Shown here piece by piece: positions 4,699 to 62,691 of a DNA stretch of 64,000 bases; within the stretch, counting starts at the first letter, position 1, and each line of letters opens with the position of its first letter. Under the pieces are notes generated by a model. The model ran no database searches. It had not been told where the DNA came from and was given only the letters and a program-made list of their open reading frames with translations. The DNA is taken from NCBI RefSeq assembly GCF_947090775.1, contig NZ_OX352321.1, positions 3,720,001 through 3,784,000 of the forward strand, given 5' to 3'. Source of the DNA: Pseudarthrobacter sp. MM222. GTDB lineage: Bacteria; Actinomycetota; Actinomycetes; Actinomycetales; Micrococcaceae. The translations under genes and the position numbers were made by a program.

Positions 4699-4909
4699 TG
4701 ATCTCCACCTGCACATAGTCCTCCCTGTGGAACATCCGCCGTTCCCGCCACCCGTCCAGGACAACCCAGACGATTGCACCGTCGGGTGTGGTGCCGTCCA
4801 CGACGCCGGAGCCGATGGGACGCCCATCCTGCGAGAGTCGCACCGGCTGCCCGGCGGGCAAGGCGTTCCATGGCACTCGGCGCCAAGGTGATCCCTTTGT
4901 CGATTTCAT
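4691..4909 (-). CDS. Small hypothetical protein downstream of purU
   Basis: This 72-residue soluble protein contains WNALPAGQPVRLSQDGRP and VVLDGWRERRMFHREDYVQVEI, which suggests a small beta-barrel-like fold, but I cannot name the family. It starts 5 bases after the purU stop on the same strand, so it is probably the last or next-to-last cistron of the glycine/one-carbon operon. No function can be inferred beyond that context. Confidence 0.55.
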   Translation of the reverse strand: MKSTKGSPWRRVPWNALPAGQPVRLSQDGRPIGSGVVDGTTPDGAIVWVVLDGWRERRMFHREDYVQVEIIA

Positions 4910-4914
4910 GAGCG

Positions 4915-5820
4915 CTATCGCAGGATGACGGTGCGGTTGCCGAGCAGCAGGATCCTGCCCTCACAATGCCAGCGGACGGCGTTGCGGAGGGCCGCGCATT
5001 CGGCGTCCCGGCCCACGGCCACGAGGTCATCGGCGGTGTACGTGTGGTCCACCTCGATAACCTGTTGCGCAATGATCGGGCCCTCATCGAGTTCGGCGTT
5101 GACGTAGTGCGCCGTGGCGCCCACCGTTTTGACGCCGCGGTCATAGGCCTGGTGGTAGGGCTTCGCACCCTTGAAGCTGGGCAGGAAGGAGTGGTGGATG
5201 TTGATGGTCCGCCCTGCAAGCTTGGCCGACAGTTCGTCACTGAGCACTTGCATATAGCGGGCCAGGACCACGAGTTCCACATCCAGTGCGTCCACAATCT
5301 CCAGGAGCCTGGCCTCGGCCTCCGGCTTGGTGTCCTTCGAGACCGGCAGGTGGAAGAACGGGATGCCGTGCCACTGGACCAGGCCCTCCTGTTCGCGGTG
5401 GTTGGACACCACCGCGACGATCTGCACCGGGATGTCGCCGGTGCGTGCCCGGAACAGCAGGTCGTTGAGGCAGTGGCCCATCTTGGACACCATCACCAGG
5501 ACGCGGCGCTTGCGGCCATGCGGCTCCAACTGCCAGCTCATCTGCCACTTTTCCGCCACAGGCGTGAAGTCCCGGCGCAGGCCTTCGGTGCTGGACTTCT
5601 GCACCGAGGAGAAGTGGACGCGCATAAAGAAGTGCCCGTGCCCCTTGTCCCCGTACTGCTTGATGTCCAGGATGTCGCAGCCGTGGTCGAACAGGAATCC
5701 TGAGATATCCCGGACGATGCCAGGTGACTCGGCACAGTCGACGGTCAGAACATGCTCAACCACGTCTGCAGCGTCCTGCGGCGTGGTGTCAGGGCTCTTC
5801 AGGGTCTGTGCTTCGCTCAT
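4915..5820 (-). CDS. purU: Formyltetrahydrofolate deformylase
   Basis: PurU (301 aa) hydrolyses 10-formyl-tetrahydrofolate to formate and tetrahydrofolate, balancing the one-carbon pool when glycine cleavage overloads it. An N-terminal ACT domain (about residues 20-95, LTVDCAESPGIVRDISGF) is followed by the formyltransferase-fold catalytic domain. INIHHSFLPSF carries the conserved Asn and His, and ELDEGPIIAQQV carries the catalytic Asp. I chose the ATG at 5820 (MSEAQTLKS), which overlaps the permease stop by 4 bases. The open frame runs on to 6144, but only as a shadow of the permease. It belongs with gcv, glyA and metF in one operon. Confidence 0.93.
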   Translation of the reverse strand: MSEAQTLKSPDTTPQDAADVVEHVLTVDCAESPGIVRDISGFLFDHGCDILDIKQYGDKGHGHFFMRVHFSSVQKSSTEGLRRDFTPVAEKWQMSWQLEPHGRKRRVLVMVSKMGHCLNDLLFRARTGDIPVQIVAVVSNHREQEGLVQWHGIPFFHLPVSKDTKPEAEARLLEIVDALDVELVVLARYMQVLSDELSAKLAGRTINIHHSFLPSFKGAKPYHQAYDRGVKTVGATAHYVNAELDEGPIIAQQVIEVDHTYTADDLVAVGRDAECAALRNAVRWHCEGRILLLGNRTVILR

Positions 5821-7283
5821 TTCTGCACCTTTTCGAACTCTTGAGCGGTGGAAGATTCCTCTTCCTGGGCGAGATCGGCCTGGAACGCCGCGTAACGGGC
5901 CAGGTGTGCAGGGCGTCGGCGCAGCACCAGCCAGGCGGCGCCGAGCAGGATGAACCAGGCCGGTGTGACCAGGAGCGCCGCCAGAGTGTCCGGCTGTGTG
6001 GTCAGCGCCCACAGGACGAAGGCGAAGAACGCGAAGACCAGCCAGACCATGGGCTTGCCACCGGGCATCCGGTATTTGGAGGTCTCGTGCAGGTGCGGGC
6101 GGCGCCTGCGGAAGGCCAGGTAGCTGGCAAGGATGATGGACCACACGAACACGAAGCAGACGGCGGACACGGTGGTCACCATGTCGAACGCCTTGCCGAT
6201 GTCCTGGCCCGCGTACATCAGCACCACGCCGGAGAGCAGGAGGACGCAGGACAGGAACAGGGCGTTTTGCGGAACCTTGCGTCGTGACAGGGCGCCGAAG
6301 ACGGTCGGCGCGTCGCCCTCCTGGGCCAGCCCGTACACCATGCGTGACGTGGAGTAGATGCCGGAGTTGGCCGATGACATGGCCGAGCTGAGTACCACCA
6401 GGTTCACCACGGTGGCTGCGGCGCCCAGGCCCGCCAGGGAGAACATTGCGATGAACGGGCTGTGGCCGGCCTGGAACTGGGTCCAGGGGGTGACGGACAT
6501 GAGGATAATGAGGGCGCCCACGTAGAAGAGCAGCACGCGGATGGGGATGGAGTTGATGGCCTTGGGCAGGTTTTTCTCCGGGTCCTTGGCCTCGGCGGCC
6601 GTGGTGCCAACCAGTTCAATGCCCACGAAGGCGAACACGGCGATCTGGAAGCCCGCCACAAATCCCATGAACTCGTTCGGGAAGAAGCCGCCGTGGCTCC
6701 AGAGGTTCGTGAAGGTGGCAGGGCCGGCGTCGGACTGGAACCCGGTGAAGATCATGAACATGCCCACCACGATCAGTGCCGCAATGGCGATGATCTTGAT
6801 CAGCGCGAACCAGAACTCCGTCTCACCGAAGGCCTTCACGGTGGTGAGGTTCAGGAGCAGGAGGATGGCCACGGTGGCCAGCCCTGGGATCCATAGCGGG
6901 AGCCCGGGCCAGAGTTCCTTGGAGTAGCCGGCGATGGCGATGACGTCCGCGATTCCCGTGATCACCCAACAGAACCAGTAGGTCCAGCCGGTGAAGAAGC
7001 CAGCCCAGGGACCCAGGAGATCCGCGGCGAAGTCGCTGAACGATTTGTAGTTCAGGTTGCTCAGCAGCAATTCGCCCATGGCCCGCATCACGAAGAACAG
7101 CATGAAGCCAATGATCATGTAGACGAAGATGACGGAGGGCCCGGCCGCGGAGATGGTTTTGCCCGACCCCATGAACAGGCCCGTTCCGATCGCGCCGCCA
7201 ATGGCGATCAGCTGGATGTGCCGGTTGCTGAGCTGCCGCTCAAGCTGCGGCTCCTGGTGGGAAGTTAGGGATTTAGTTGTCAC
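5817..7283 (-). CDS. AAT-family amino acid permease (CycA-like)
   Basis: This 488-aa APC-superfamily transporter has about 12 hydrophobic segments. The AAT signature is near the N-terminus: LSNRHIQLIAIGGAIGTGLF at 20-39, followed by GSGKTISAAGPS. The family imports neutral amino acids by proton symport. Similarity in the first helices and the location inside a glycine/serine operon suggest glycine, D-alanine or D-serine (CycA-like) as substrate, which is inference. Its start lies inside the end of the metF-like gene (11-base overlap) and its stop overlaps the purU start by 4 bases, so the three are translationally linked. Confidence 0.88.
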   Translation of the reverse strand: MTTKSLTSHQEPQLERQLSNRHIQLIAIGGAIGTGLFMGSGKTISAAGPSVIFVYMIIGFMLFFVMRAMGELLLSNLNYKSFSDFAADLLGPWAGFFTGWTYWFCWVITGIADVIAIAGYSKELWPGLPLWIPGLATVAILLLLNLTTVKAFGETEFWFALIKIIAIAALIVVGMFMIFTGFQSDAGPATFTNLWSHGGFFPNEFMGFVAGFQIAVFAFVGIELVGTTAAEAKDPEKNLPKAINSIPIRVLLFYVGALIILMSVTPWTQFQAGHSPFIAMFSLAGLGAAATVVNLVVLSSAMSSANSGIYSTSRMVYGLAQEGDAPTVFGALSRRKVPQNALFLSCVLLLSGVVLMYAGQDIGKAFDMVTTVSAVCFVFVWSIILASYLAFRRRRPHLHETSKYRMPGGKPMVWLVFAFFAFVLWALTTQPDTLAALLVTPAWFILLGAAWLVLRRRPAHLARYAAFQADLAQEEESSTAQEFEKVQK

Positions 7284-48151: not shown

Positions 48152-50192
48152 TCAGGGAGTCCCGTGGATGGCACTCTCGGCGTCCAGGTCGTCTGCCCCG
48201 CTTCGGGACGGGTGCTCATCCAGGACGGGGAGGTGGGTGTTGAGTCCGACCGGCTGCGGCGCCGGCCGGCCCAGCAGATAGCCCTGTCCGGCCAGTACGG
48301 GCTGCCGTGCGGTGCCGCTGTGTCCGGGCTGCAGCAGGGTTGAGAGCATCTGGTGTTCCTCGATGCCTTCGGCGACAACCCACCCCCCGCTCTGCCCGAC
48401 AAAGGTCATGGCCGCAGCCACGGTGGCCGCCGATGAGGGGGTCTTTGCCGAGCCGGGCGATGACCTCCCCGTCGATCTTGATGATGTCGAACCGGACAAG
48501 GGTCAGCGCGCGCAGCCCGGCGTTGCTCCTGCCCATGTCGTCAAGGGCCAGCCGGAAGCCCCGCTCGTGTGCCCGGGTGAGAGTGCGGATCGGTTCGGCG
48601 TGGTCCAGGCCAGCCTGTTCGGTCACCTCCAGAACGACGTCTTCGGGTTCCAGACCGGCGGCGGCCAGCTCGGCGGTGAGAGCGTCGATGTCAAGGTGGG
48701 TCAGAGCGTCCGGATGGATGTTCATGAATAGCAGACCGTCCCACCGCCGGGCCTTCACTGCTGTGAGGACCTCCCGCCGTGCCCGGGCGTCCAGCGCTGC
48801 TGCCAGACCGAGGCGTTCGGCGAGCTCGAAAGCCTCTTGGGGTCCCGAGATTGGGGAATCTGTCGGCAACCGCAGCAGCGCCTCGTGGGCCAGCACGACA
48901 CCGCGGCGCAGGTCCCAGATCGGCTGGAACGCCACCGTGATGGGGCTGTTGTCGGCAACAAGCGCCGTCAGGGCCTCGATCTTCTCGGCACTGACGGTGT
49001 GTCCCGCCGCCATGGACCCGAAGGTGACGCTTTGGCGGCGTCCCCGCCGCTTGGCCTCATAGAGGGCAGCGTCGGCGCGCTCCCAGAGTTCCTGCAGCGC
49101 CGCAGGATCCGCCACGGTGCTCGAAGCGATGCCAGCGCTGAAGGTCACGCCGGTGAACCTGCCGAGCAAGGCGGTCCGGACCCGCTCCAGGGCCTCGGCT
49201 GCCCCGTACTCATCGAGACCGGGCAGTATGACGGCGAACTCATCCCCGCCCAGCCGGAACGCAGTGTCCGAGGCGCGCAGTTCCGCAAAGGAGTCCGCGA
49301 AACCAGTGAGGACGCGGTCGCCGTAACTGTGGCCGAGACGGTCGTTGATCCGCTTGAAGTTGTCCAGATCGAGCAGAGCCAGCGTCACGGGCGTGGCTGC
49401 CCCGCGCGTCAGGGCCGATTCCAAAGCCGGCCGGAAAGGGCGCCGGCTGGCCAGCCCGGTCAGCGCGTCCTCGTCAGCCTCCCGCTGCGCCCGCAGCTGA
49501 CGGAGATGCAGCGTCCGGCCACCCAGCATGTAGGACAGCGGGATGGCACAGAGTACCGCAACGAGCAGTCCCAGCAGGCCACGCTGCCGCTGGTCGGCGA
49601 CCAGCTCCGAGATGATGTCAGGGTGCTGGTCGATGTTCAGGATCAGCGTCGCGCCCGGTGCCGACACCGGAATGAAGAACTCGTATGCATCGACGGATGC
49701 GTCGTGGTCCGCGAGTTCTTCGGTCTCGACAGCCGCCGTGCCGGTGGACGCCACCTCGGCGAGCCGCTCCGGATCGGCCCTGGTCCGGCCGGGTTCCTTC
49801 CCCGCCTCCGCAAACAGTCGACCGTCCGCGGCGAACAAACCCGCATACACAGTGCCGTAACCGTGTTTGATGTGGTCCAGTTCGGCAGCAATCGCCGCAT
49901 CCCGAATCGCCGGGTCAGAATTCGCCGCCAGGGCTTCTTCGAGTTGCTCCGACAGGGCCCCATAGTTCCGCAAGGAGTCCTGGAGCCCGCGATCAACGAT
50001 CTGCTGCTGCGCCACGCCGAACTCCACGAGGCCGGCGAGCAGTACCGCCGAGGACACCGCGAGTACCCACCGGACCAGGAACGGCAAACCCACCGACCGG
50101 AAACTCCGCCTCCTCGCTGCACGTGCCCCGCCCGTGGCCAGCCCACCTGCATCACCCGTATGCGTGCCCGCAAAAATCCGGTGATAATCCAT
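48152..50192 (-). pseudogene. Diguanylate cyclase/phosphodiesterase (GGDEF-EAL) with a frameshift
   Basis: This membrane-anchored c-di-GMP enzyme has TM1 at about 37-58, an extracytoplasmic sensor region, TM2 at about 204-223, GGDEF at 315-319 with an intact inhibitory site RASD at 306-309, and an EAL domain from about residue 400 (HEALLR at 436-441, FMNIHPD, DIIKIDG). After ARLGKDPLIGG near 48430 this frame loses homology. The next frame continues the EAL domain with ATVAAAMTFVGQ, WVVAEGIEEHQ and QGYLLGRPAP to a stop at 48152. Removing one G in the GGCGGCC run restores a 679-aa protein. As read, the phosphodiesterase lacks its last Glu and Gln and should be inactive, while the cyclase domain is whole. 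A sequencing error is possible. I chose the ATG at 50192. Confidence 0.85.
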
Positions 50193-50333
50193 AGCGCCCC
50201 CAATAGCCCCCAGCCAGCCCGCCAGCTCCGGCGACGGATACCCCCAAACATAGCCGCACAGGGCCCGGCCGGGGCTTTCATGCGGAAAACATGCCGAAAC
50301 CTTGCGTCCCTGCGACCCTCGGAAGAGCAAAAA

Positions 50334-52294: not shown

Positions 52295-53701
52295 TCAACG
52301 TATCGGCAGTGGCTCCTCGCTGGTCAGGACGAGGCTGTGGATTTGCCGGATGTCGGGGCAGGCTTCCAGCGTCATGATCTTGTGAGCAAGGAGTTCGGCC
52401 CTGTCTGTGCCCAGCCGGGTACCTGCGAGTTCGGAGAACTTGGCCAGGGTTTCGCCGTCGGAGAGCCGGTTGGTCACCGCACCCCGCGCCGCCACTGCTT
52501 GGCGGCGGTAAATCTTGCCGTTGGCGAGGATTTCCAGGTGCGGCTCTGCAGAGCCTCCGTGCTGCGAAGCGTCAACCTCTATATGGATGCGCTCCATCAG
52601 CGACAATATGGCCGGTTCCGTCCTGCCCTGGAGCGCGACGTCCTTGAGGCCTACGCCGTTCCGCAGCATGGCCGTGGCCAGGGCAAAAGGCATGCTTAGC
52701 TGTGCGGCCACCAGCGATGAGGTGTCGCGGCCGCCACACATGTCCAGAATGAGGGAGCTCGTGTGGACCGTGATGCGCTCTGTGCTCCCGGGGTCGAGCC
52801 CCTGCTCCTGCTTGAGGTGAAGCACTGCGTCGATGGCCGAATGTGTGCTCCGGCAGGATGCGTAGGGCTTGATGGAAGCGCGCTCCACCAGCCAGGTGTC
52901 ACCCAGTCCTGCAAACAGCGCTGCCTCGTCGGCCACATTTCCGCCATAGAGGGACAGGAAACTGCCCCAGGGTGCGGAAAAGATGTCGCTTGGACCGGTA
53001 AAGCCCGCGCGGGCCAGCACGGCCGAGTTAAGTCCGGCCTCGGCTGCACGGCCGACGTGCAGGCGCTTGGACATCGACCCGTCGCTCATGAAGGCCCAGG
53101 TTCCGCCCGTGAACGATCCGGCCAGGCCGATCGCGGAGGTAAGTTGCTGCTGGTCCAGTTCCAGGATGGTTCCTGCGGCCATCGCCGCAGCAAAAGTTCC
53201 GCAGACGCCGGTGGAGTGCCAGCCGGCGTTGTTGACGCGGTCATACCCGCCGAGGGCGGTCTGCACCCGGCGTCCCAGCTCGTAGCCTGCGATGACCGCG
53301 AGCATGAGGCGTTCGCCGGACACGGGCGCCGTTGCAAGGGCGCAGGCGGCCAGAGCGGCTGGCAGGGCTACCGCACCGGAGTGATCGCAACCGCCTGAAT
53401 CGTCGAGCTCGAAGGCGTGGGCCGCGACGCCGTTGACGAAGGCGGCCTGCAAGGGCGGGACGGATTTCGGCGTCCCCCACAGCGGTGCACCACCGCCCGC
53501 GGGTGCTTCACCATGGGCGGGGCCGAGCGCTGCCCTGCTGACGTCCGCCTCGATTGAGGCTGATCCGGCGATGCCCGCTCCCAGGGTGTCGAGGATGTGG
53601 AGCTTGACGCGGTGTTGGGCGGCCGCGGAGACATCGGTCAGGGTGAGCTTGGCGAAGAAGCTGGCGAACGATTGCGAGGCTGTCGCCTGGATGGTTTCCA
53701 T
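52295..53701 (-). CDS. MmgE/PrpD-family protein
   Basis: This 468-aa protein has the MmgE/PrpD fold: an N-terminal helical domain with FVNGVAAHAFELDDSGGCDHSGAVALPAALA near 100 and IAGYELGRRVQTALGGYD near 148, then an inserted alpha-beta domain. The family includes 2-methylcitrate dehydratase and, as I recall, iminodisuccinate epimerase of Agrobacterium. Both act on succinate-like acids next to a carboxylate. It is the last gene of the lyase/ABC/deacetylase operon, 27 bases after the second deacetylase gene. Function as epimerase or dehydratase is inferred. Confidence 0.88.
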   Translation of the reverse strand: METIQATASQSFASFFAKLTLTDVSAAAQHRVKLHILDTLGAGIAGSASIEADVSRAALGPAHGEAPAGGGAPLWGTPKSVPPLQAAFVNGVAAHAFELDDSGGCDHSGAVALPAALAACALATAPVSGERLMLAVIAGYELGRRVQTALGGYDRVNNAGWHSTGVCGTFAAAMAAGTILELDQQQLTSAIGLAGSFTGGTWAFMSDGSMSKRLHVGRAAEAGLNSAVLARAGFTGPSDIFSAPWGSFLSLYGGNVADEAALFAGLGDTWLVERASIKPYASCRSTHSAIDAVLHLKQEQGLDPGSTERITVHTSSLILDMCGGRDTSSLVAAQLSMPFALATAMLRNGVGLKDVALQGRTEPAILSLMERIHIEVDASQHGGSAEPHLEILANGKIYRRQAVAARGAVTNRLSDGETLAKFSELAGTRLGTDRAELLAHKIMTLEACPDIRQIHSLVLTSEEPLPIR

Positions 53702-53728
53702 AGGTGCCTATCTTGCTTTCGGTGTTTT

Positions 53729-54622
53729 TCAGGACGGGGCGGTCAGCCGGTGGAAAACTTCGGCGGGGTGATCCGGGTGGTTCGGCGTGTTCCGCCTGCT
53801 CCACCATTCCGCCACTTCCCCACCGGTGGCCTGCCAAACGTCCTCTTGGCCAGAGACATGGTCCATGAATGCCCGCAGGAGACCTATGCGGCCAGGCGTG
53901 GCGATGATTTCCGGGTGGACGGTGAGGACGAAACAGAGGCCCTCTTCCCGGTACGCCTCGAACTCCAGGATCCAGTTCCGCAGCACCTCCCGGGTGGAGG
54001 CGATCCGCGGGCTGCCCTTGGGGATGGGGGGATCCAGATTGAAGACGAAGTATGGGTAGTCGTCCAGTTCGTGATGGCGGCTCAGCTCTACGAGCCGGCA
54101 TCCTTGTCCTGCGTGGAAGTGCGGGAGGTCGTCTCCGTGCCATGAGGATGACCAGGTGAACCCGGCGTCCGCCAGGCCGGCGGGCAGTCCACGGGCGTAC
54201 GAACCCCGGCCTGCCCGGAACCCGGTGGGCGTCACGCCCAGCATGGCTTCGAACGCGTCCTGCGATTTCCCGACTGTTTCCAGCTGTTGATCCAGGCTCA
54301 GGACGGACAGGTTTTCCAGGGCCCACCCCATGTTGGCGAGCTCATGGCCCTGCGCGGCAACCGCTTCCATCTGCCTCGGGTACCGGGCAAGGTTGCTGGC
54401 CGGAACGAACCAGCTGGCACGGGTACCCGTGCGGCCCAGTTCGGCGAGCAGCCTGTCCACTCCCCTCGTGCCGCCGTACTGACCCACCGAAAGACTCTTG
54501 GCGCGGTCGCCGGCGTCGGGTGCTTCGGCCAGGATGGCCAGTTCCGCCTCAAATCCGACGGTCAGCACGAAGGCGCATTGCTTTCCGTGGGGCCAGCGGG
54601 GGGCTCCATTGTCGCGGCTCAC
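53729..54622 (-). CDS. Polysaccharide-deacetylase-family pseudoenzyme
   Basis: This 297-aa paralogue of the upstream deacetylase shares WPHGKQ, DRLLAEL, GFRAG, CRLVELSRHHELDDYPYF and HPEIIATPGRIGLL. The metal and catalytic residues are gone. The motif 1 Asp pair of its partner (FDLDG, Asp22 and Asp24) reads GFEAE here, and the partner motif HEVGHHGYKHE reads HELANMGWALE, so the ligand histidines became Asn, Met and Leu. It may be a structural or regulatory subunit of the active paralogue. The start is GTG at 54622, overlapping the partner's stop by 4 bases, which favours a complex of both chains. Confidence 0.85.
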   Translation of the reverse strand: MSRDNGAPRWPHGKQCAFVLTVGFEAELAILAEAPDAGDRAKSLSVGQYGGTRGVDRLLAELGRTGTRASWFVPASNLARYPRQMEAVAAQGHELANMGWALENLSVLSLDQQLETVGKSQDAFEAMLGVTPTGFRAGRGSYARGLPAGLADAGFTWSSSWHGDDLPHFHAGQGCRLVELSRHHELDDYPYFVFNLDPPIPKGSPRIASTREVLRNWILEFEAYREEGLCFVLTVHPEIIATPGRIGLLRAFMDHVSGQEDVWQATGGEVAEWWSRRNTPNHPDHPAEVFHRLTAPS

Positions 54623-55461
54623 TGCTCTTCTTTCCTGTTGTTGGTCCGCCACCACGTGCTGACCTCCTGGCACGTTGCGAACCAGACGGCGCCATCTTCC
54701 TGCATGTGGTCGATCCAACGGTCCAGAAGGACCGCACGGCCCGGTTTTCCTATCACCTTGGGATGGAAGATGGTGGTCAGGCACAGCCCTTCGCGGTGGT
54801 AGCCGTCAAATTCGCGCACCCAGTTGTCCAGCGTCAGCTCGTAGCTGGCGATCCGGTCACCGCCGGAGGGCCAGTCCGGATTGGTGGTGTAGGCCAGCGA
54901 GGCGTAGTCGTCCATGTCGGAGCGCGCAGGGATTTCCACGAGCCTTCCGCCGGGGTGGAAGTAGGGGCGGTCATCCCCGCGCATGGAGCTGGAGTATTCG
55001 AAGCCCCGTTCGGCCAGCAACGCCGGGGTTTCCGGCCGCCAGTCCCCGGACGGTGTACGGAAGCCCACGGCGGCGGCCCCCAGCGTGTTGCGGAAAATAC
55101 GTTGGCTCGTGTCGATGACGTCCCCTTGCTGGTCTGCGGAGAGATCCCAGTACTTCTCGTGCTTGTAGCCGTGGTGGCCCACCTCGTGGCCGCGGTCGAC
55201 GATGGTCCGGCACTTGTCGGGCCAGGTCTCCACCACCCAGGCGGGCGTGAAGAAGGTGGCGCGGACCTGGCGGCGGTCCAGCAGCGCCAGGATCCGGTCC
55301 AAGGCCCGCCATGGTCCGTACGCGCCTTGGGCAAAGTACTCAGGACGGTCCCAGATGGATCCTGTGAGCATCGCATCGCCGGTGGGACCGTCAAGGTCAA
55401 AAGCCAGGGCGACGGCGCTTTGCTTACCTTCCGGCCACGCCGTCGCCCTGGCTTCCGTCAT
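54619..55461 (-). CDS. Polysaccharide-deacetylase-family hydrolase (PuuE-like)
   Basis: This 280-aa NodB-fold metal hydrolase has motif 1 AFDLDGPTGD (Asp22, Asp24), motif 2 GHEVGHHGYKHEKY (His96/97, His101), motif 3 GFRTPSGDW (Arg135) and a late HPKV histidine. The HEVGHHGYxHE version resembles cofactor-independent allantoinase PuuE and related amide hydrolases rather than chitin deacetylases. A cytosolic C-N bond substrate is therefore likely. There is no signal peptide. I prefer the ATG at 55461, which aligns with the paralogue's start, to the TTG at 55476 that overlaps the SBP stop. Confidence 0.87.
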   Translation of the reverse strand: MTEARATAWPEGKQSAVALAFDLDGPTGDAMLTGSIWDRPEYFAQGAYGPWRALDRILALLDRRQVRATFFTPAWVVETWPDKCRTIVDRGHEVGHHGYKHEKYWDLSADQQGDVIDTSQRIFRNTLGAAAVGFRTPSGDWRPETPALLAERGFEYSSSMRGDDRPYFHPGGRLVEIPARSDMDDYASLAYTTNPDWPSGGDRIASYELTLDNWVREFDGYHREGLCLTTIFHPKVIGKPGRAVLLDRWIDHMQEDGAVWFATCQEVSTWWRTNNRKEEQ

Positions 55462-55472
55462 TGATTCAGTGG

Positions 55473-56348
55473 TCAAGACTTGACGCCGTTGATCTCCGGC
55501 TTGGTGCTGCCGTAGCCCAGTCCGTGGCCGTCGAGGATTTTCTGGTAGTCACCGCTGGCAATGATTTTGTCGAAGGCGTCCTTGACGGCGTTCGCGAGCT
55601 GGGTGTCGCCCTTCTTCATCAGGACACCAAAAGGCTTGGCCGGAAGGGCGTCAAGGACGGGCTGGTACTTTCCGGGTTCCGTTTTCGCGAAGTAGGCGAG
55701 GTTTTCCGCGCCCTGGGCCGCCAGGTCTGCCCGGCCCTGGTCGATCTGCAGGCGCGCGGCGGCTCCCGAGTCGGTGGCCAGGATGCTGATCTCGGGCAGG
55801 CCTTGATCGGTGCAGACCGTCTTGCTGAGCGCCTTGACCTGCTCGAAGTAGTCTGTCTTGCCGCTCACTGCCAGGCTCTTTCCGCAGGCATCAGACTGCT
55901 TGGTGAACTCGCCGGCCCTGGCCCCGGATGTGTAAAGCCGGCCCTGGGACTTGAAGTAGTCCACAAAATCAACCGTCTTCTGCCGCTCCAGGGTGTCCGA
56001 GATGCCGGACATGACCAGGTCTACGCGGCCGGTCTGCACTGAGTTGATCAGCTGGTCGAAGGGCGATTCGACCACTTCGATTTTCACCCCCAGCACCTCG
56101 CCCAGCTTCTGCTGCAGTTCAATGTCCAGGCCGGCGAGTTTGTCGCCGTCGCGGTATTCCATGGGCGGAAAGTCGGGAGACAGCCCGATCCGGATGGATC
56201 CGGCGTCCTTGATGGCCTGGGGCAGGCCCGCGGTGTCCGTACTTGAGGAGGGCGTCGCGGTGCCGGTTCCGCCGACGCAGCCGGTGAGGCCAAGCGTGAC
56301 GACGGCGGCGATTGCGCCGATGCGCGCGGTGGTGTTGAGGTGCTTCAT
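55473..56348 (-). CDS. Amino-acid ABC transporter substrate-binding lipoprotein
   Basis: This 291-aa family-3 solute-binding protein has a lipoprotein signal, VVTLGLTGCVGGTG, with the lipidated Cys near residue 24. The family core is SIRIGLSPDFPPMEY, GLDIELQQKLGEVLG, NSVQTGRVDLVMSGISDT and GRADLAAQGAEN. It probably binds an amino acid or an N-substituted amino acid and passes it to the permease and ATPase encoded just upstream. It is followed by the two deacetylase-family genes. Confidence 0.93.
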   Translation of the reverse strand: MKHLNTTARIGAIAAVVTLGLTGCVGGTGTATPSSSTDTAGLPQAIKDAGSIRIGLSPDFPPMEYRDGDKLAGLDIELQQKLGEVLGVKIEVVESPFDQLINSVQTGRVDLVMSGISDTLERQKTVDFVDYFKSQGRLYTSGARAGEFTKQSDACGKSLAVSGKTDYFEQVKALSKTVCTDQGLPEISILATDSGAAARLQIDQGRADLAAQGAENLAYFAKTEPGKYQPVLDALPAKPFGVLMKKGDTQLANAVKDAFDKIIASGDYQKILDGHGLGYGSTKPEINGVKS

Positions 56349-56410
56349 GGGATGCTCCAGGATTCGTTGAGAGGGGTGAGGGGAGGGATGGCCGGGCTTG
56401 GGGACTAGAA

Positions 56411-57178
56411 CTAGAAGACGCGGGAGAGGAAGGCCTGGGTCCGCTCGTGGCGGGGATTCCCAAGGACGTCCTGGGGCGTGCCGATTTCGACGATCTCGCC
56501 GTCGTGCATGAACGCCACACGGTCCGCGACTTCCTTGGCGAACCCGATTTCATGGGTGACAACGATCATGGTGAGGCCAGACCGGGCCAAGTCCTTCATG
56601 ACATCGAGGACTTCGCCGACGAGCTCGGGGTCAAGGGCGGAGGTGGGCTCGTCGAAGAGGATGAGTTCCGGCTGCATGGCGAGAGCCCTGGCAATGGCCA
56701 CGCGCTGTTGCTGGCCGCCGGAGAGCTGGCGGGGATAGGAGTCCTCGCGTCCTTCCAGACCCACGCGGGCAAGCATTTCGGAGGCTAGCCGCTTGGCTTC
56801 GGCGGGTTTCTCCTTTTTCACGAGCACGGGACCTTCAATGATGTTCTCAAGGACGGTCATGTGGGGAAACAGATTGAACCGCTGGAACACCATGCCGATG
56901 GAACGCCGCTGCCGGGCCGCTTCCTTGTCGGACAGCTCAAACAGACGGTTGCCGTCCTGCCGGTACCCTACGACTTTGTCACCGACCCAGATTCGTCCGT
57001 TGGACAGGGTTTCCAGGTGGTTGATGCAGCGCAGGAAGGTGCTTTTCCCGGAGCCGGACGCGCCGAGCAGGCAAACGACCTCGCCCCTGTTGACCTCAAG
57101 GTTGATCCCCTTCAGGACCTCATTCAGCCCAAAGCTTTTGTGGACATTCTCGGCACGGACCAATGCTGTAGCGTTCAC
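56411..57178 (-). CDS. Amino-acid ABC transporter ATP-binding protein
   Basis: This 255-aa ATPase of the GlnQ/HisP (PAAT) family has Walker [12 protein letters not shown] near 34-44, the Q-loop in [10 protein letters not shown], signature LSGGQQQR near 148-155, Walker [14 protein letters not shown] and the H-loop VTHEIGF. Its start overlaps the permease stop by 4 bases (57175-57178). It powers uptake of the ligand of the lipoprotein encoded 62 bases downstream. Confidence 0.96.
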
Positions 57179-58095
57179 GGGGTTGCCTTTCTGTAAGTGC
57201 CGAAAATCCGCGAGATGCGCTGGATCGGCGTCAGCGGGAGCTGCCGGCTCGAGGAGCCCTTGGCGAAGGACCGTTCCAGGTAGTACTGGCCGATGCTAAG
57301 GATCGACACCGCCCCGAGATACCAGATCGCACAGACGATGAGCAGCTCCATGATGCGGTTGTTGACGTAGTAGATGTGCTGGGCTTCGGAGAGGATCTCG
57401 CTGACTCCGATGGCCGAAGCGAGGGACGTTGTTTTCAGCATGCCAATTACTTCGTTCCCCACCGGAGGGATGATCACCCGCATCGCTTGCGGCAGCACGA
57501 TCCGCCGCATGGCCTGCAGCCGGGTCATCCCCACCGCCTGCGCCGCCTCCGTCTGCCCTTCGTCCACGGACAGGATTCCGCCGCGGACCACCTCAGAGGT
57601 GTAGGCGCCCTGGTTCAGGCCAAGGCCGATGGAGGCCGCGACGAACGGCGAGAGGATGTCGATCATGCGGCCTTGGAAGACACCGGGAATCCCTACGACC
57701 GGAAAGATCAGCGCCAGGTTGAACCACATCAGCAGCTGCAGGTACACCGGGGTTCCGCGGAACACCCATATGTAGAGCCACGCCACCCCGGAGGTCACCG
57801 GATTCTTGGATAGCCGCATGACCGCTGTAACCACACCAAGGACCAGCCCGATCACCATGGCCACGACCGTCAGGACAATGGCGACGCCGATGCCTTGGAT
57901 GAGGACGGGTACAGTCAGGTACTCGGTGACGGTAGGCCAATCGAGCTGGGCGCGGGAGAAGGACACTCCCAGCCAGACCAGGAAGACCACCACAAGTCCG
58001 GCGCTGATCCAGCGCGCAACGTGCCGGCGCGGCACGATCTTGAGGTCCAGCGTTGACGCGTCCTGCATTTTGCCTGACTCAGTTTGAGTATTCAT
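57175..58095 (-). CDS. Amino-acid ABC transporter permease
   Basis: This 306-aa permease of the HisMQ family has about five or six hydrophobic segments. The EAA loop is [24 protein letters not shown] near 190-213, and [19 protein letters not shown] is the usual RGTP block. An N-terminal cytosolic extension of about 30 residues precedes TM1. Only one permease gene is present, so it presumably homodimerises. It starts 65 bases after the lyase gene. Confidence 0.94.
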
Positions 58096-58160
58096 TGGGT
58101 TTCCTGATCTGGGAGATATTGGTGCGGCCGGACCCAGCCGCTCAATGTCACGGCCGGCTC

Positions 58161-59603
58161 CTAGGAGGCCGCGGCGGCTTGCACCCGCAGGCCCTGGTAG
58201 TGCCCGGACCAGCTCAGCACCTGGTCCAGCCGGACGCGGAGACGCGTCAACTGCTCTTCGACGCGCGCCGGCGCCGTCCCGCCAAACCCGCTGTGGGCCT
58301 CCAGCGCCGCCTCGATAGTCAGGACTTCGCGGACAGCGGGAGTCAGGCGCGAATCCACTGAGGCCAGCTGGTCGTCCGTGAGGTCTCCGTAGTCCAGACC
58401 ATGCGATTCGCAGTACTGCACCAGCGCGCCGGAAATGTCGTGCGCCTCACTGAAGGGAATGCCCTGCCGGGCAAGCCAGTCAGCCACTTCGGTGGCCAGG
58501 GTGAAACCTGCGGTGGACTGCCGGGTGACTTCCGCGACGTTGACTGTGAACGTGCGCACCAGCCCGCTGAGCGCGGGTAGTGCTACCTCCAGCGTTTCGA
58601 CGGCGTCGATGACAGCGTTCTTGTCTTCGGCCAGGTCCCGGTTGTAGGCGAGCGGCAGGGACTTTACCGCTGCCATGAGACCCACGAGGTCCCCCAGGAC
58701 GCGGCCTGCCTTGCCACGGGCTAGCTCCGCGATGTCCGGATTTTTCTTCTGCGGCATGATGGAGCTTCCGGTGCAGTATGCATCATCCATTCGGATCCAC
58801 CGGAACTGCTGGGACGCCCAGGAGATGATCTCTTCACACAGGCGTGAAATGTCGATCAGGGTCAGGGAGCAGACAAATAGAAACTCAATGGCGGCGTCGC
58901 GGCTGCCAACGGCGTCGATAGAATTTTCGGCGCTGGTTTCGTAGCCTTGGTCCCGCGCTGCCACCTCCGGGTTCAGAGCAAACGTTGAGCCCGCAAGCGC
59001 CGCAGCGCCGAGCGGTGAAACGGCGGCCCTCTTATCCCAGTCCTGGAACCGGTGGAGGTCCCGCAACAGGGGCTGGGCGTGAGCCAGGAGCTGGTGGCCG
59101 AAAACCACTGGCTGGGCGGACTGCAGATGGGTGAAACCCGGCACCGGCGTGTGCAGGTGTTGCTCCGCCTGTCCCGCGAGGGCCTGGGCCAGTTCCACCA
59201 CCAAGGCACTGAGAGTGCGGACCTTGTCCCTCATGTAGAGGCGGAGATCGTTGGCGGCCTGGTCGTTCCGGGACCGTCCTGCGCGGATTTTGCCACCGTC
59301 CGGGCCCATGCGTTCAATGAGAACGCGCTCCAGGAACGTGTGGACATCCTCGTCCTGCTCCTTGGGTTCAATCCCCCCTGCCGCGAAGTCGCGGCTGAGG
59401 TCGTCCAGGACGTTGATGAACTCCGTGAGTTCCGCGTCCGAGATCAGACCGGACCTGTTCAGCTCCCGGACGTGGGCGCGGGAACCGTGAAGGTCGTAGG
59501 GTGCCATCGCAAAGTACCGGGGGTCCGACCGGGAGAATCGGGAAAGCTCCGGGCTGGATGCGCCGGCAAACCGGCCGCCCCACAGTTTGGTTTGCGCTGT
59601 CAT
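58161..59603 (-). CDS. Argininosuccinate-lyase-like C-N lyase
   Basis: This 480-aa protein of the aspartase/fumarase superfamily is closest to argininosuccinate lyase: KLWGGRFAG at 6-14, RAGRSRNDQ near 107-115, GFTHLQSAQP at 156-165 and signature GSSIMPQKKNPD at 279-290 with the catalytic Ser. Such enzymes release fumarate from an N-succinyl group by anti-elimination. No argG or other arginine gene is nearby. Instead the gene heads an ABC-importer, deacetylase and MmgE/PrpD operon under a LacI regulator, so the substrate may be another N-(1,2-dicarboxyethyl) amino acid. A role as ordinary ArgH cannot be excluded. Confidence 0.88.
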   Translation of the reverse strand: MTAQTKLWGGRFAGASSPELSRFSRSDPRYFAMAPYDLHGSRAHVRELNRSGLISDAELTEFINVLDDLSRDFAAGGIEPKEQDEDVHTFLERVLIERMGPDGGKIRAGRSRNDQAANDLRLYMRDKVRTLSALVVELAQALAGQAEQHLHTPVPGFTHLQSAQPVVFGHQLLAHAQPLLRDLHRFQDWDKRAAVSPLGAAALAGSTFALNPEVAARDQGYETSAENSIDAVGSRDAAIEFLFVCSLTLIDISRLCEEIISWASQQFRWIRMDDAYCTGSSIMPQKKNPDIAELARGKAGRVLGDLVGLMAAVKSLPLAYNRDLAEDKNAVIDAVETLEVALPALSGLVRTFTVNVAEVTRQSTAGFTLATEVADWLARQGIPFSEAHDISGALVQYCESHGLDYGDLTDDQLASVDSRLTPAVREVLTIEAALEAHSGFGGTAPARVEEQLTRLRVRLDQVLSWSGHYQGLRVQAAAAS

Positions 59604-59746
59604 GGTTTGCTCCTCAAGGTGTGAAAGAAGTGACCGGAGTCACCTGCATGTAACCAAAGTATTCCCTGAGTAAACGTGAGTCAATGATTACGATGTAAAT
59701 TGTTTGTTTCCGGGAGACTGGTATCAGTTCATTTATAAAGCGAAAG

Positions 59747-59760
59747 AGATACCGGTATCT
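59747..59760. promoter_or_regulatory. LacI-type operator candidate (14-bp perfect palindrome)
   Basis: AGATACCGGTATCT is perfectly symmetric with the central CG typical of LacI-family operators. A related partial site, agactggtatcag, lies near 59714-59726. Both sit in the 290-bp gap between the lacI-type gene and the lyase gene, about 110-160 bases upstream of the lyase start. The rest of the gap is AT-rich and holds no gene. Confidence 0.6.
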
Positions 59761-59893
59761 GACTGGCGACGACGTTACGTCAGAGTGGGATGTGCGTCAA
59801 CGACTTGCCCGCGCCTCACCTGAAAATGACGCGTCGACGGGCGCCATGTGGGCCAGCGCGTTGGAGGCCACCAATCGGCGGGACCGTGGGCTA

Positions 59894-60970
59894 TTAGGCC
59901 GAATCTGCCAGCGGTTGGGCCGGTCGGAGGTCCGCCACTGAGGATCGTTCGATGAACTCGGTCGGCAGCAGGTGGTCCGTGCCTTCGGGCCCGGTGCCGG
60001 CGATGCGGTCCAACAGGACACCCGCCGCCCTCGCTCCCAAGTCGTAAGCGGGGATGGCGACTACCGACACACCCGGCGTGCTGACAGTCATCCAGTCGGC
60101 GTCGTCAAGGCAAACCAGCGATACATCTTCAGGGATCCTCAGTCCGGCCTCCCGGATGGCCTGGAACGCAGGCAGGGCCAGCCTGCTGTAGGACATGATG
60201 AGGACACTGGGCCGGTCTGGACGCTTCACCAGCTCCGACACCACGTCCCGCGTCTGCTGCGGGGACATGGCCCCGGTTATGAACTCGTACTCGACCCCAG
60301 TTTCGGCGGAGGCATCGCGGATGGCCCGAACCCGGTCTGCAATAGTGGAAATTGGCAGCGGATAGCCACGTTCCAGCTCCAGTGGCGTCTTTGTGGTGGC
60401 CGAGATGAAGGCGAGCTTCCGATGTCCACGGCTGGCAACGTATTCCACTACGCTCTTTGCGTCCGCGTAGCAGTCCGTGCCCACCCAGTCCGTCTGGATG
60501 TTGTCAGGTCTCCGGTCAAAAAGCACCAAAGGCCTCTTCATCTTCACAACATCCAGCAGATGGGAAGAATCGCTTCGGGACGTCGAGGCTACAACCAGCC
60601 CGTCAACGCGCTTGGCCAGGAAGACCTCCACTGCATCTCGCTCGGCCTCCAGATTCTCGTCGGTGTTAGCCAGGATCACGTCAAAGCCAGACTTCTTGGC
60701 CGCATCCGTAATCCCCCGGACGGCACGCGCGAAGTGTGGATTCTCAATGTCGCTAATGACCACACCAATGGTGTGGGACCGCCCGGAACTCACACTGCGG
60801 GCCAACGCATTGCCACGGTAACCCAACGTCTCCGCTGCCGCCTCCACCATCGCCGCAAGGTCCTGGCGGACGGAGCCATATCCCCCCAGGGCGCGGGCAG
60901 CTGTGGCCCGCGAGACACCCGCGAGCCTCGCCACATCGGCCAGGCGGGGATTTGTATAATTTGGCTCCAT
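59894..60970 (-). CDS. LacI-family transcriptional regulator
   Basis: This 358-aa repressor has an N-terminal HTH (LADVARLAGVSRATAARALGG) and hinge helix (GNALARSVSSGRS), followed by a periplasmic-binding-like effector domain (TIGVVISDIENPHFARAVRG, VDGLVVASTS, LVLFDRRPDNIQTDWVGTD). I chose the ATG at 60970. The TTG two codons earlier is unlikely. It is on the same strand and just upstream of the lyase/ABC operon and most likely controls it through the palindrome at 59747. The effector is probably the imported substrate or its product. Confidence 0.93.
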   Translation of the reverse strand: MEPNYTNPRLADVARLAGVSRATAARALGGYGSVRQDLAAMVEAAAETLGYRGNALARSVSSGRSHTIGVVISDIENPHFARAVRGITDAAKKSGFDVILANTDENLEAERDAVEVFLAKRVDGLVVASTSRSDSSHLLDVVKMKRPLVLFDRRPDNIQTDWVGTDCYADAKSVVEYVASRGHRKLAFISATTKTPLELERGYPLPISTIADRVRAIRDASAETGVEYEFITGAMSPQQTRDVVSELVKRPDRPSVLIMSYSRLALPAFQAIREAGLRIPEDVSLVCLDDADWMTVSTPGVSVVAIPAYDLGARAAGVLLDRIAGTGPEGTDHLLPTEFIERSSVADLRPAQPLADSA

Positions 60971-61054
60971 AAGCAAAACCTACAACATTTGGCAATACTC
61001 CATAACCAATGAGTCCACCCGAGACACCGGTTTCCCGAATTCCGCGCGGCCGGC

Positions 61055-62167
61055 TTAGGGCGCGGAGTCCACCACCGACGTCCGCACGGACGTCCACGAC
61101 ACCACAGTTCCGGCAGGGGCATCCGGGTAATCCCGCTGCAGGACCGCCCGTTCCCCAATCACCAGCCCCGACGTGGGATCAATGATGATCTCCTGCCGGG
61201 ATCCTCCATCCGGCGACGGGATGCCGATGGCGATGCCCGTCCGTTCGTCGACTGTTGCCTGCTTGTCCACAACTGTGACGCCGGTGATGAGAGCGGCGGC
61301 CTTGTACAGGGCAGCACGCATATCGGCCGTGATGACACCGCTCCGCAGGCCATCCGCGATCGTCACGAATGCTTCAATTTCGGGGGACTTCCCGGAATCC
61401 TTCGTCCGCTCGTAGATGATGTCCAGCAGAGCCCGCGGATCTCCTGGCAGACTGCTGGCTTCCTTGAGGGGCGTGCCCCTAATGACTGTTTGCTCGTTCC
61501 CGTAGAAAGCGCCCCTTGGGGCGCGCAGAATGCCCACCAGCGGGGGCTGGCCTTCCGGCGGTCGTGATGCTGCCTGCAGTTTCCGTATCTGGGCGGCGGC
61601 GGCCTTGGCGGCTTCACTGGAGGACTCAAGGGGGACGCGGTCTTCGCGGTTCCAGACCCACTCCCCTTCCCTGTCCGCGGGCACGTAGACCTGGCCACCG
61701 GTTTTCTCCAGCCAGGACAACTGGCTTCCATCGGCGCCTACTGCGCTTGAGCCGTAGACGGACGCCGTGTCGATCTTCAGATACTGGTCGGGCCCCACCA
61801 CCGGGTCGGAGGTCCGGATGGCTGCCCCGGCTGCTTTGTTCAGGACCTCTGCGGCTTCGGCAGTTGCTCCCGGACGGTCGGGCAGGATGACATCGGCCGC
61901 CACGATGACGCCCACGAGGAACGCTGCAGCCGCCGAGGCCATCACGATCCTGCGCCGTATGCGGATGGGGCTGGTCCTGAATGAGGTGCCCGGCCGGGTG
62001 ATTGCGCTGAGATGGGAAACGGAACCGATCCCGGACTCAGCGTCTGAATTAAGGAATGAAAGCGATCTGGCCCGGCTCCTGGCCAATTCAGATTCACTGA
62101 CGGAGTGCCCGGGATCGGCAGATGCAAGCTGGTATTCGATGCTACCTGGCACGTTACTTTTGGTCAT
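61055..62167 (-). CDS. CU044_5270-family membrane protein, ECF sigma partner
   Basis: This 370-aa protein has one membrane segment near residues 72-92 (RRIVMASAAAAFLVGVIVAADVI) and a long extracytoplasmic domain with ALLDIIYERTKDSGKSPE and GIAIGIPSPDGGSRQEIIIDPTSGLVIGE. The family is found next to ECF sigma factors in actinobacteria, and its start overlaps the sigma gene stop by 4 bases here. It could act as an anti-sigma or sensor. No zinc-finger anti-sigma motif is visible in the cytosolic part. Confidence 0.82.
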   Translation of the reverse strand: MTKSNVPGSIEYQLASADPGHSVSESELARSRARSLSFLNSDAESGIGSVSHLSAITRPGTSFRTSPIRIRRRIVMASAAAAFLVGVIVAADVILPDRPGATAEAAEVLNKAAGAAIRTSDPVVGPDQYLKIDTASVYGSSAVGADGSQLSWLEKTGGQVYVPADREGEWVWNREDRVPLESSSEAAKAAAAQIRKLQAASRPPEGQPPLVGILRAPRGAFYGNEQTVIRGTPLKEASSLPGDPRALLDIIYERTKDSGKSPEIEAFVTIADGLRSGVITADMRAALYKAAALITGVTVVDKQATVDERTGIAIGIPSPDGGSRQEIIIDPTSGLVIGERAVLQRDYPDAPAGTVVSWTSVRTSVVDSAP

Positions 62168-62691
62168 CGTTCTGCTCCCTCTGGCTGTGCATCTGTACGT
62201 AGGAGACGGCTAAGTGCTTTGCGTGCCCGGTGCAGCCGCATCCTGACTGCCGTGGCGCTCGTGTTGAGCAGGTCCGAAACCTCATTGGAGCTAAAGCCGT
62301 CCCAGTAGGTCAGGAGCAGTACTTCGCGGTCCTCGGGGCCGAGTTGACTCAATGCATCTCGGATCGGGGATTCATCGTCGGAGCTATCGTGGTTACGCTC
62401 GAGGCGAAGAGCACCCAGGAGACTGGCGGACCGGACAGCTGACCGGTCATGGTTCCGGAGCACGTTCTTCGCTATCCCGAAGAGAACCATGACCGAAAGG
62501 CTCTCGTTGTGCGCTGTCTTCTCCCACGTGATCCTGAAGACTTCGGCACACAGATCTTCAGCGGTAGCGGCGTTTTCCGTTCGACGGCGGAAATAGCGGT
62601 AGATGCGGTCGTGGCCGGCGGCATGGGTGGCCAAGAAGCGTTTCTCCCTGTCCAAGTCCCCTCGTTCCGTCCCGACGGTTTGTAAGCTCAT
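62164..62691 (-). CDS. ECF-family RNA polymerase sigma factor
   Basis: This 175-aa sigma factor has region 2 (residues about 23-90, with AATAEDLCAEVFRITWEKT) and region 4 (about 115-165, LGPEDREVLLLTYWDGFSSNEVSDLL, then an HTH ending RMRLHRARKALSRLL). It is translationally coupled to the membrane protein downstream. Regulon and signal unknown. A terminator lies upstream of it, so it has its own promoter in 62692-62782. Confidence 0.93.
   Translation of the reverse strand: MSLQTVGTERGDLDREKRFLATHAAGHDRIYRYFRRRTENAATAEDLCAEVFRITWEKTAHNESLSVMVLFGIAKNVLRNHDRSAVRSASLLGALRLERNHDSSDDESPIRDALSQLGPEDREVLLLTYWDGFSSNEVSDLLNTSATAVRMRLHRARKALSRLLRTDAQPEGAER

Follow-up and report, generated by a model that had tools for sequence, protein, structure and literature searches.

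What does an operon degrade when an argininosuccinate-lyase-like gene, an amino-acid importer and two NodB-fold genes are joined in it? This question is raised by the locus at positions 52295-60970 of a 64,000-nucleotide stretch of Pseudarthrobacter sp. MM222 (assembly GCF_947090775.1, contig NZ_OX352321.1, positions 3,720,001 to 3,784,000), which we analysed at its full length and call the window. Eight open reading frames (ORFs) are found here on the minus strand and belong to the LacI, ArgH-type lyase, permease, ATPase, binding lipoprotein, NodB (NodB1 and NodB2) and MmgE/PrpD families; a preliminary description of the locus had listed the same eight same-strand genes, and both their coordinates and the domain matches agree with it. 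Our answer, given tentatively and with a little less than even confidence, is that this may be a LacI-controlled catabolic operon for an imported N-(1,2-dicarboxyethyl) compound (an 'N-succinyl', that is, secondary-amine aspartate compound), at least partly cyclised as a lactam, imide or hydantoin-like amide, in which a NodB protein would open the ring, the MmgE/PrpD protein would adjust the product and the lyase would carry out the elimination. The import-and-degrade operon around a second, ArgH-derived lyase that had been proposed earlier is upheld by the gene content, by a separate argG-argH pair and by the co-conservation of the genes.

The lyase gene (58161..59603, minus strand) is the second ArgH-like gene of its genome. 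The possibility that it is the only one, raised in the preliminary description, was rejected since an argG-argH pair is present elsewhere (1565915-1568592), and a second, higher-scoring ArgH was also found in all four other genomes searched that carry the same group of genes (the module). A tree of 47 rows was built with 15 of 28 module lyases, all 4 lyases of a second type and 28 of 83 comparators. Here the module lyases form a single clade (support 100/100) that arises inside ArgH, at a fork among the actinobacterial sequences whose order the tree does not resolve; the second-type lyases group separately elsewhere in the tree (support 98/96); long branches are seen for L126, L132 and L138. 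Grouping inside biosynthetic ArgH would have counted against the preliminary description; the lyase does arise there, next to actinobacterial ArgH, but as a clade of its own. It may be noted that ArgH is the parent family of the module lyase and that the listed catalytic residues are shared (Thr158, His159, Ser280, Ser281, Lys286 and Asn288, conserved in 28 of 28 module lyases), whereas the module lyase differs in its separate clade, its catabolic gene setting and the loss of a conserved Gln. The window motif reads YNRDLAEDK against YNRDLQEDK in ArgH, which places Ala325 at the Gln position; Ala, Ser, Val or Gly stands there in all 28 module lyases and Gln in 82 of the 83 comparators, and the replacement is also seen in the Streptomyces locus L205. 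We take this Gln to bind argininosuccinate at its arginine end; the papers found on this residue of ArgH do not describe what it does. A redundant argH of arginine biosynthesis swept into an amino-acid transport operon could explain a TIGR00838 score of 507 against a cut-off of 279.5, but we regard it as very improbable in view of the clade of its own, the lost Gln, the separate argGH and a module co-conserved across phyla.

A search of the PDB with the window lyase gave 498 bits for the best ArgH and 177 bits for the ethylenediamine disuccinate (EDDS) lyase of Chelativorans BNC1. The two lyases share the superfamily and, by number, Arg112, Asn113, Asn288, Asp290 and Tyr320. In the excerpted text of PMC12363623, Gln159 belongs to the active site of EDDS lyase, and its position is taken by His159 in the window lyase (the register is inferred, the five other named residues agreeing by number). 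A specific EDDS-lyase identity was rejected on these two grounds, and the EDDS link of the preliminary description is not specifically supported.

Chance clustering of the genes was also rejected, as grouping and gene order are kept in 20 of 20 loci selected by NodB1 match out of 50 distinct NodB1-matching genomes (the genus of Pseudomonas batumici and Pseudomonadota). The permease, ATPase, binding protein, NodB1 and NodB2 genes are together in all 20, MmgE is present in 17, and an ArgH-type lyase in all 20, of the window type in 19 and of the second type in 1. Four loci in all use the second-type lyase, which was recruited separately, and two such recruitments of an ArgH-type lyase into the module argue that the elimination step is needed. 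Of 249 genomes sampled from the genus of P. batumici, 45 have a NodB1 match, as do 6 of 398 sampled Pseudomonadota (E <=1e-60 in both) and 4 of 246 Streptomyces genomes (E <=1e-55); among 394 genomes from the window's class the window's own is the single match (E <=1e-65). In the window's own family (E <=1e-40) there were matches in 27 of 295 genomes, with module-like scores only in the window's genome and in G615, the other 25 being at 32-37% identity; three own-family loci with weaker NodB matches (33-37% identity), examined as contrast, have no module. Plasmid records gave 111 NodB1 matches, and among the best 40 listed, 11 are at >=53% identity and the next at 38.5%; in the 8 of these 11 loci that were examined, permease, ATPase, NodB1, NodB2 and MmgE are present in 8 of 8, with the order conserved, and an ArgH-type lyase in 7 of 8, Paracoccus being the exception. 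Module-type genes are found in Pseudomonas (the P. batumici genus), Burkholderia, rhizobia, Arthrobacter relatives (with the module also in the same-family genome G615, locus L126) and Streptomyces (one locus, L205, with the whole module), and the gene order recurs in other phyla. The genes are kept together in related and distant genomes alike, a co-conservation whose lack would have counted against the preliminary description. Its statement that no such full combination is known holds for the literature, in which no description of these gene families combined was found (paper titles and abstract openings, with subscription literature mostly outside the search), but not for genomes, where the combination is widespread.

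The module is not always complete. A scan of the genome collection with the lyase alignment gave, among the matches listed, mostly ordinary ArgH, plus importer-bearing loci of Pseudomonas (L009), Burkholderia (L010) and Alsobacter (L011). In L009 and L010 the NodB pair is present too; L011 has lyase and importer with neither NodB pair nor MmgE in its 21 kb, and its genome has no NodB1 match at E 1e-60. Four Pseudomonas loci (L009, L183, L184 and L187) are without MmgE. With lyase and importer alone in L011 and no MmgE in these four, the usual core looks like importer plus lyase, for which NodB and MmgE may act as feeders. It may be noted that one MmgE search, at E 1e-100, was too strict for counting distant module MmgE proteins. 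On clustering the flanking genes, only regulators and other ABC (ATP-binding cassette) transporter genes form clusters in >=3 lineages, and a few genes recur in two, e.g. aldehyde-dehydrogenase-like and M20-peptidase-like ORFs (by reading). In G615 the operon goes on into two more genes (L126 12066-14748), one for an ATZ/TRZ-type amidohydrolase and one that is isoaspartyl-dipeptidase-like, with a score of 254 bits against a cut-off of 331. Both are absent from the other loci searched and fit aspartyl or amide chemistry. Beside the Burkholderia module (L010 3187-7449) we read FMN monooxygenase-like, dicarboxylate-transporter-like and second PurB/CMLE-like lyase genes, possibly a neighbouring related pathway.

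The NodB1 gene (54619..55476, minus strand, PF01522) has as nearest solved relatives, by sequence and by fold, 3rxz, HpPgdA, 1z7a, PuuE and 3s6o. With a predicted model (predicted local distance difference test, pLDDT, 83; predicted template-modelling score, pTM, 0.85), the ten best fold matches are all from this group (E <=1e-17, template-modelling (TM) score by query 0.74-0.83), and the next NodB-fold proteins follow at E >=4e-11 and TM by query 0.45-0.60. This makes a sugar deacetylase function somewhat less likely for NodB1. The residues D27, D29, H102 and H106 are kept in 32 of 32 cases (the window and 31 loci), and the CE4 metal triad Asp-His-His is present. The adjoining NodB2 gene (53729..54622, minus strand) most likely starts at GTG 54622, with a 4-bp overlap with the NodB1 stop, and encodes a degenerate NodB1 paralogue; all three metal ligands are present in only 1 of the 32 (L126), and in the other 31 the site is lost. 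Among the best 120 of 265 NodB2 homologues all three are found in 13, the named ones being from Streptomyces and Saccharopolyspora, and the NodB2 of Streptomyces L205 has all three. The ligand losses differ between lineages, as is expected of a partner freed from catalysis; a catalytically dead NodB2 is likely, but PuuE is an example of a protein that is active without the metal. The 'deacetylase pair' of the preliminary description is not supported, NodB1 being nearest to the PuuE/HpPgdA group and NodB2 having lost the metal site in all but one of the 32 cases. Going by the accessible portions of the sources, the substrate of PuuE is a small cyclic imide, both PuuE and HpPgdA are tetrameric (PMC3084791), and PuuE is active though metal-independent (PMC10967932, PMC3084791). 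The module proteins resemble this group in the NodB1 fold and differ in that NodB1 has metal ligands which are absent from PuuE and in that two tandem paralogues are present, one of them degenerate.

The MmgE/PrpD-fold protein (52295..53701, minus strand, PF03972/PF19305) is a putative epimerase or isomerase. Scores of 117 bits with bsIRG1, 103 bits with iminodisuccinate (IDS) epimerase and 93 bits with cis-aconitate decarboxylase put it at about the same distance from all three, and its best solved relative is a 445-residue Bacillus subtilis protein. IDS epimerase is paired with a C-N lyase in Agrobacterium BY6, and the locus is alike in joining an MmgE/PrpD protein with a C-N lyase; it differs in the added NodB pair, in a lyase near ArgH and in one catalytic residue. 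In the module proteins two His are kept, and in 28 of 28 Asn takes the place of a Tyr that is present in both IDS epimerase and B. subtilis bsIRG1. As the catalytic His/Tyr pair described for IDS epimerase (excerpted text of PMC7347537) is incomplete, an IDS-epimerase identity was rejected, and this part of the preliminary description is not supported. Its wider view, in which iminodisuccinate, EDDS or some natural aminopolycarboxylate is broken down, MmgE being the epimerase and the lyase cleaving the C-N bond, draws on enzyme folds that are the same as those of EDDS lyase and IDS epimerase, and the products of iminodisuccinate would be central metabolites, which fits the absence of further shared enzyme genes. 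We consider it unlikely, since Asn replaces the Tyr, His stands for the Gln159 of a lyase that is nearer to ArgH, and neither iminodisuccinate nor EDDS offers an amide to the NodB pair.

The operon encodes a one-permease importer of the amino-acid type, with the permease gene at 57175..58095 (minus strand, PF00528; the best NCBIfam equivalog, cystine permease, is below cut-off), the ATPase gene at 56411..57178 (minus strand, by family matches), which overlaps it by 4 bp, and the gene of a substrate-binding lipoprotein (SBP_bac_3) at 55473..56348 (minus strand, PF00497). Arg- and Gln-binding proteins are nearest to the latter by sequence and by fold (predicted model, pLDDT 88). The Arg is kept and a QG-x-E motif lies at the site of the relatives' Asp in 36 of 36 rows; of the five PDB relatives printed, four have Asp opposite Gly213 (for one of these, a two-domain chain, within its second domain) and the fifth has it opposite Gln212, with a gap. 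That Asp is presumably the ligand of the alpha-amino group in binding proteins. This bears on salvage of argininosuccinate and its cyclic anhydrides, whereby NodB would open the ring, MmgE correct a stereocentre and the lyase release arginine and fumarate: argininosuccinate has a free alpha-amino acid head, and the binding protein is without the Asp of alpha-amino-acid binding proteins. The Gln that we assume to be part of the argininosuccinate site is also lost in 28 of 28 lyases. Even with module lyases adjoining actinobacterial ArgH in the tree, and with arginase and ornithine cyclodeaminase genes next to a lyase-less Paracoccus module, such a salvage seems to us distinctly unlikely.

For the N-(1,2-dicarboxyethyl) compound that we tentatively favour, the pathway would run as follows. 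The compound would be taken up by the ABC importer, as its family suggests, and its ring amide would be hydrolysed by NodB1 with the degenerate NodB2 as partner, a step proposed from the PuuE/HpPgdA likeness and the intact metal site. The MmgE/PrpD protein may then bring the product into a stereochemistry or position that the lyase accepts, which is the weakest step, and the ArgH-type lyase, going by its kept catalytic residues, would eliminate fumarate and release an amine. Both products would enter central metabolism, as suggested by the lack of any further enzyme gene in >=3 lineages on clustering of the flanks. Salvage of S-(2-succino)cysteine (2SC) was considered as well, and so were, as candidate substrates, argininosuccinate anhydrides, opine lactams, hydantoin-type rings and aminopolycarboxylates; the literature listing, as titles and abstract openings, holds nothing on degradation of these compounds by such genes. 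In a broader form, possible and held at well under even confidence, this would be an undescribed, phylum-crossing pathway in which a two-subunit NodB hydrolase (active NodB1 and a dead, structurally retained NodB2) opens the cyclised N-(1,2-dicarboxyethyl) compound, and fumarate and an amine are then formed by an isomerase of the MmgE type together with an ArgH-type lyase that has been re-specialised, the lyase role having been filled twice independently.

Among known systems, the yxe (scm) locus with S-(2-succino) lyase (2SL) is alike in its amino-acid-type ABC importer, a fumarate-releasing lyase of the same superfamily and an amide hydrolase; YxeQ also has the MmgE/PrpD fold, YxeP is an amidohydrolase, and 445 residues is, we believe, the length of YxeQ too (compare the best solved relative of MmgE). 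It is different in that here a NodB pair stands for YxeP, no YxeL-type gene is common across lineages and the lyase is an ArgH offshoot. The yxe/2SL route is the nearest described system in kind, in so far as the excerpted report goes (PMC9706529). Salvage of succinated thiols on its model would have S-(2-succino) or N-acyl-S-(2-succino) cysteine imported, fumarate and (N-acyl)cysteine released by the lyase and the acyl group removed by a NodB protein. From the same excerpt, yxe loci join an amino-acid ABC importer, a deacetylase and YxeQ, and a fumarate-releasing lyase class I enzyme is present in 27 of 102 (PMC9706529). Near the Burkholderia pyrrocinia module there is a gene for a GNAT acetyltransferase, two genes upstream of that of the lyase (L124 4386-4916), and in L120 and L192 M20-peptidase-like ORFs (by reading) are found at a distance of 6-9 kb. 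On the other side, no acetyltransferase gene is in the flank clusters of >=3 lineages (not all flanks were searched for that family), the NodB proteins differ in type from YxeP and the window lyase is close to ArgH, and we consider this account unlikely.

A number of points weigh against the ring-opening pathway that we prefer. The lyase is far above the ArgH cut-off (507.4 bits with TIGR00838 vs 279.5), the ArgH Gln is kept in 4 of 4 second-type lyases, and the roles given above to this Gln and to the Asp of the binding proteins are assumed. Sugar deacetylases, too, match the NodB1 fold, with TM by target of up to 0.81 (a shorter sugar deacetylase), so that the fold alone does not exclude such a function; and with PuuE model TIGR03212 NodB1 scores 85 bits against a cut-off of 424.6. 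The ring as substrate is proposed from the PuuE likeness as its single argument. HpPgdA is about as close to NodB1 as PuuE is, and showed no activity with allantoin or any other compound tried, by the accessible text of PMC3084791. As PuuE works without a metal, the metal site of NodB1 does not tell the reaction. In Paracoccus (L119) there is no lyase in the 21 kb, and the module has upstream of it, in divergent orientation, genes for arginase and ornithine cyclodeaminase (4715-6694), an arrangement that could point to an arginine-type product. Also, of the 4 Streptomyces genomes with NodB1 matches, 3 have no module; L206 (8434-10666) and L207 (9513-11395) carry the NodB pair only, with intact ligands in NodB1 beside a degenerate NodB2 and no lyase, module ABC genes or MmgE, and L208 (9347-10333) a single copy. 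A pair without the module means that the NodB proteins need not act on the lyase's substrate. Around the Streptomyces NodB copies we read RpiR-like genes and, in L207 and L208, also peptide-importer-like and acyltransferase/amidase-like genes.

As for regulation, the tight spacing noted in the preliminary description holds for the seven catabolic genes (gaps of 65, -4, 62, -4, -4 and 27 bp in transcription order from the lyase) but not for the LacI-family gene (59894..60970, minus strand, ATG start at 60970; PF00356/PF13377, no NCBIfam equivalog above cut-off), which is set apart 290 bp upstream of the lyase gene. Within this gap lies an operator-like perfect palindrome, AGATACCGGTATCT (59747..59760, read 59760-59747). 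A second operator-like site with 2 mismatches (59714..59725) is 34 bp nearer the lyase gene, and a third, also with 2 mismatches (61023..61034) and some 50 bp before the start of LacI, makes autoregulation of LacI possible. Sites with <=2 mismatches number 4 in the window against 0.96 expected, a count reached by 1 of 100 shuffles, and three of the four are located at the lyase or LacI promoters. In the whole genome (4.29 Mb) there are two copies of the 12-bp palindrome core and none of the reversed pattern that served as control. The second copy (L197 7802-7813) is upstream of an operon with unrelated LacI, sugar-kinase-like and isomerase-like genes (by reading), so the site is not unique to the operon studied here. 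A promoter scan gave a result at chance level.

The names 'argininosuccinate lyase' and 'polysaccharide deacetylase' that databases give to these genes are probably wrong, the genes being parts of a single catabolic pathway. An identified substrate would name seven gene families at once, would add a fumarate-releasing route to carbon and nitrogen use in soil and plant-associated bacteria, and would test whether NodB-fold enzymes act as active/inactive pairs. Around the operon, an ORF resembling a GGDEF/EAL-type signalling protein is read on the minus strand at 48216-50330, and upstream of the LacI gene (61055-62691) there is a sigma-factor-like gene (62164-62691) followed by another gene, both also by reading.

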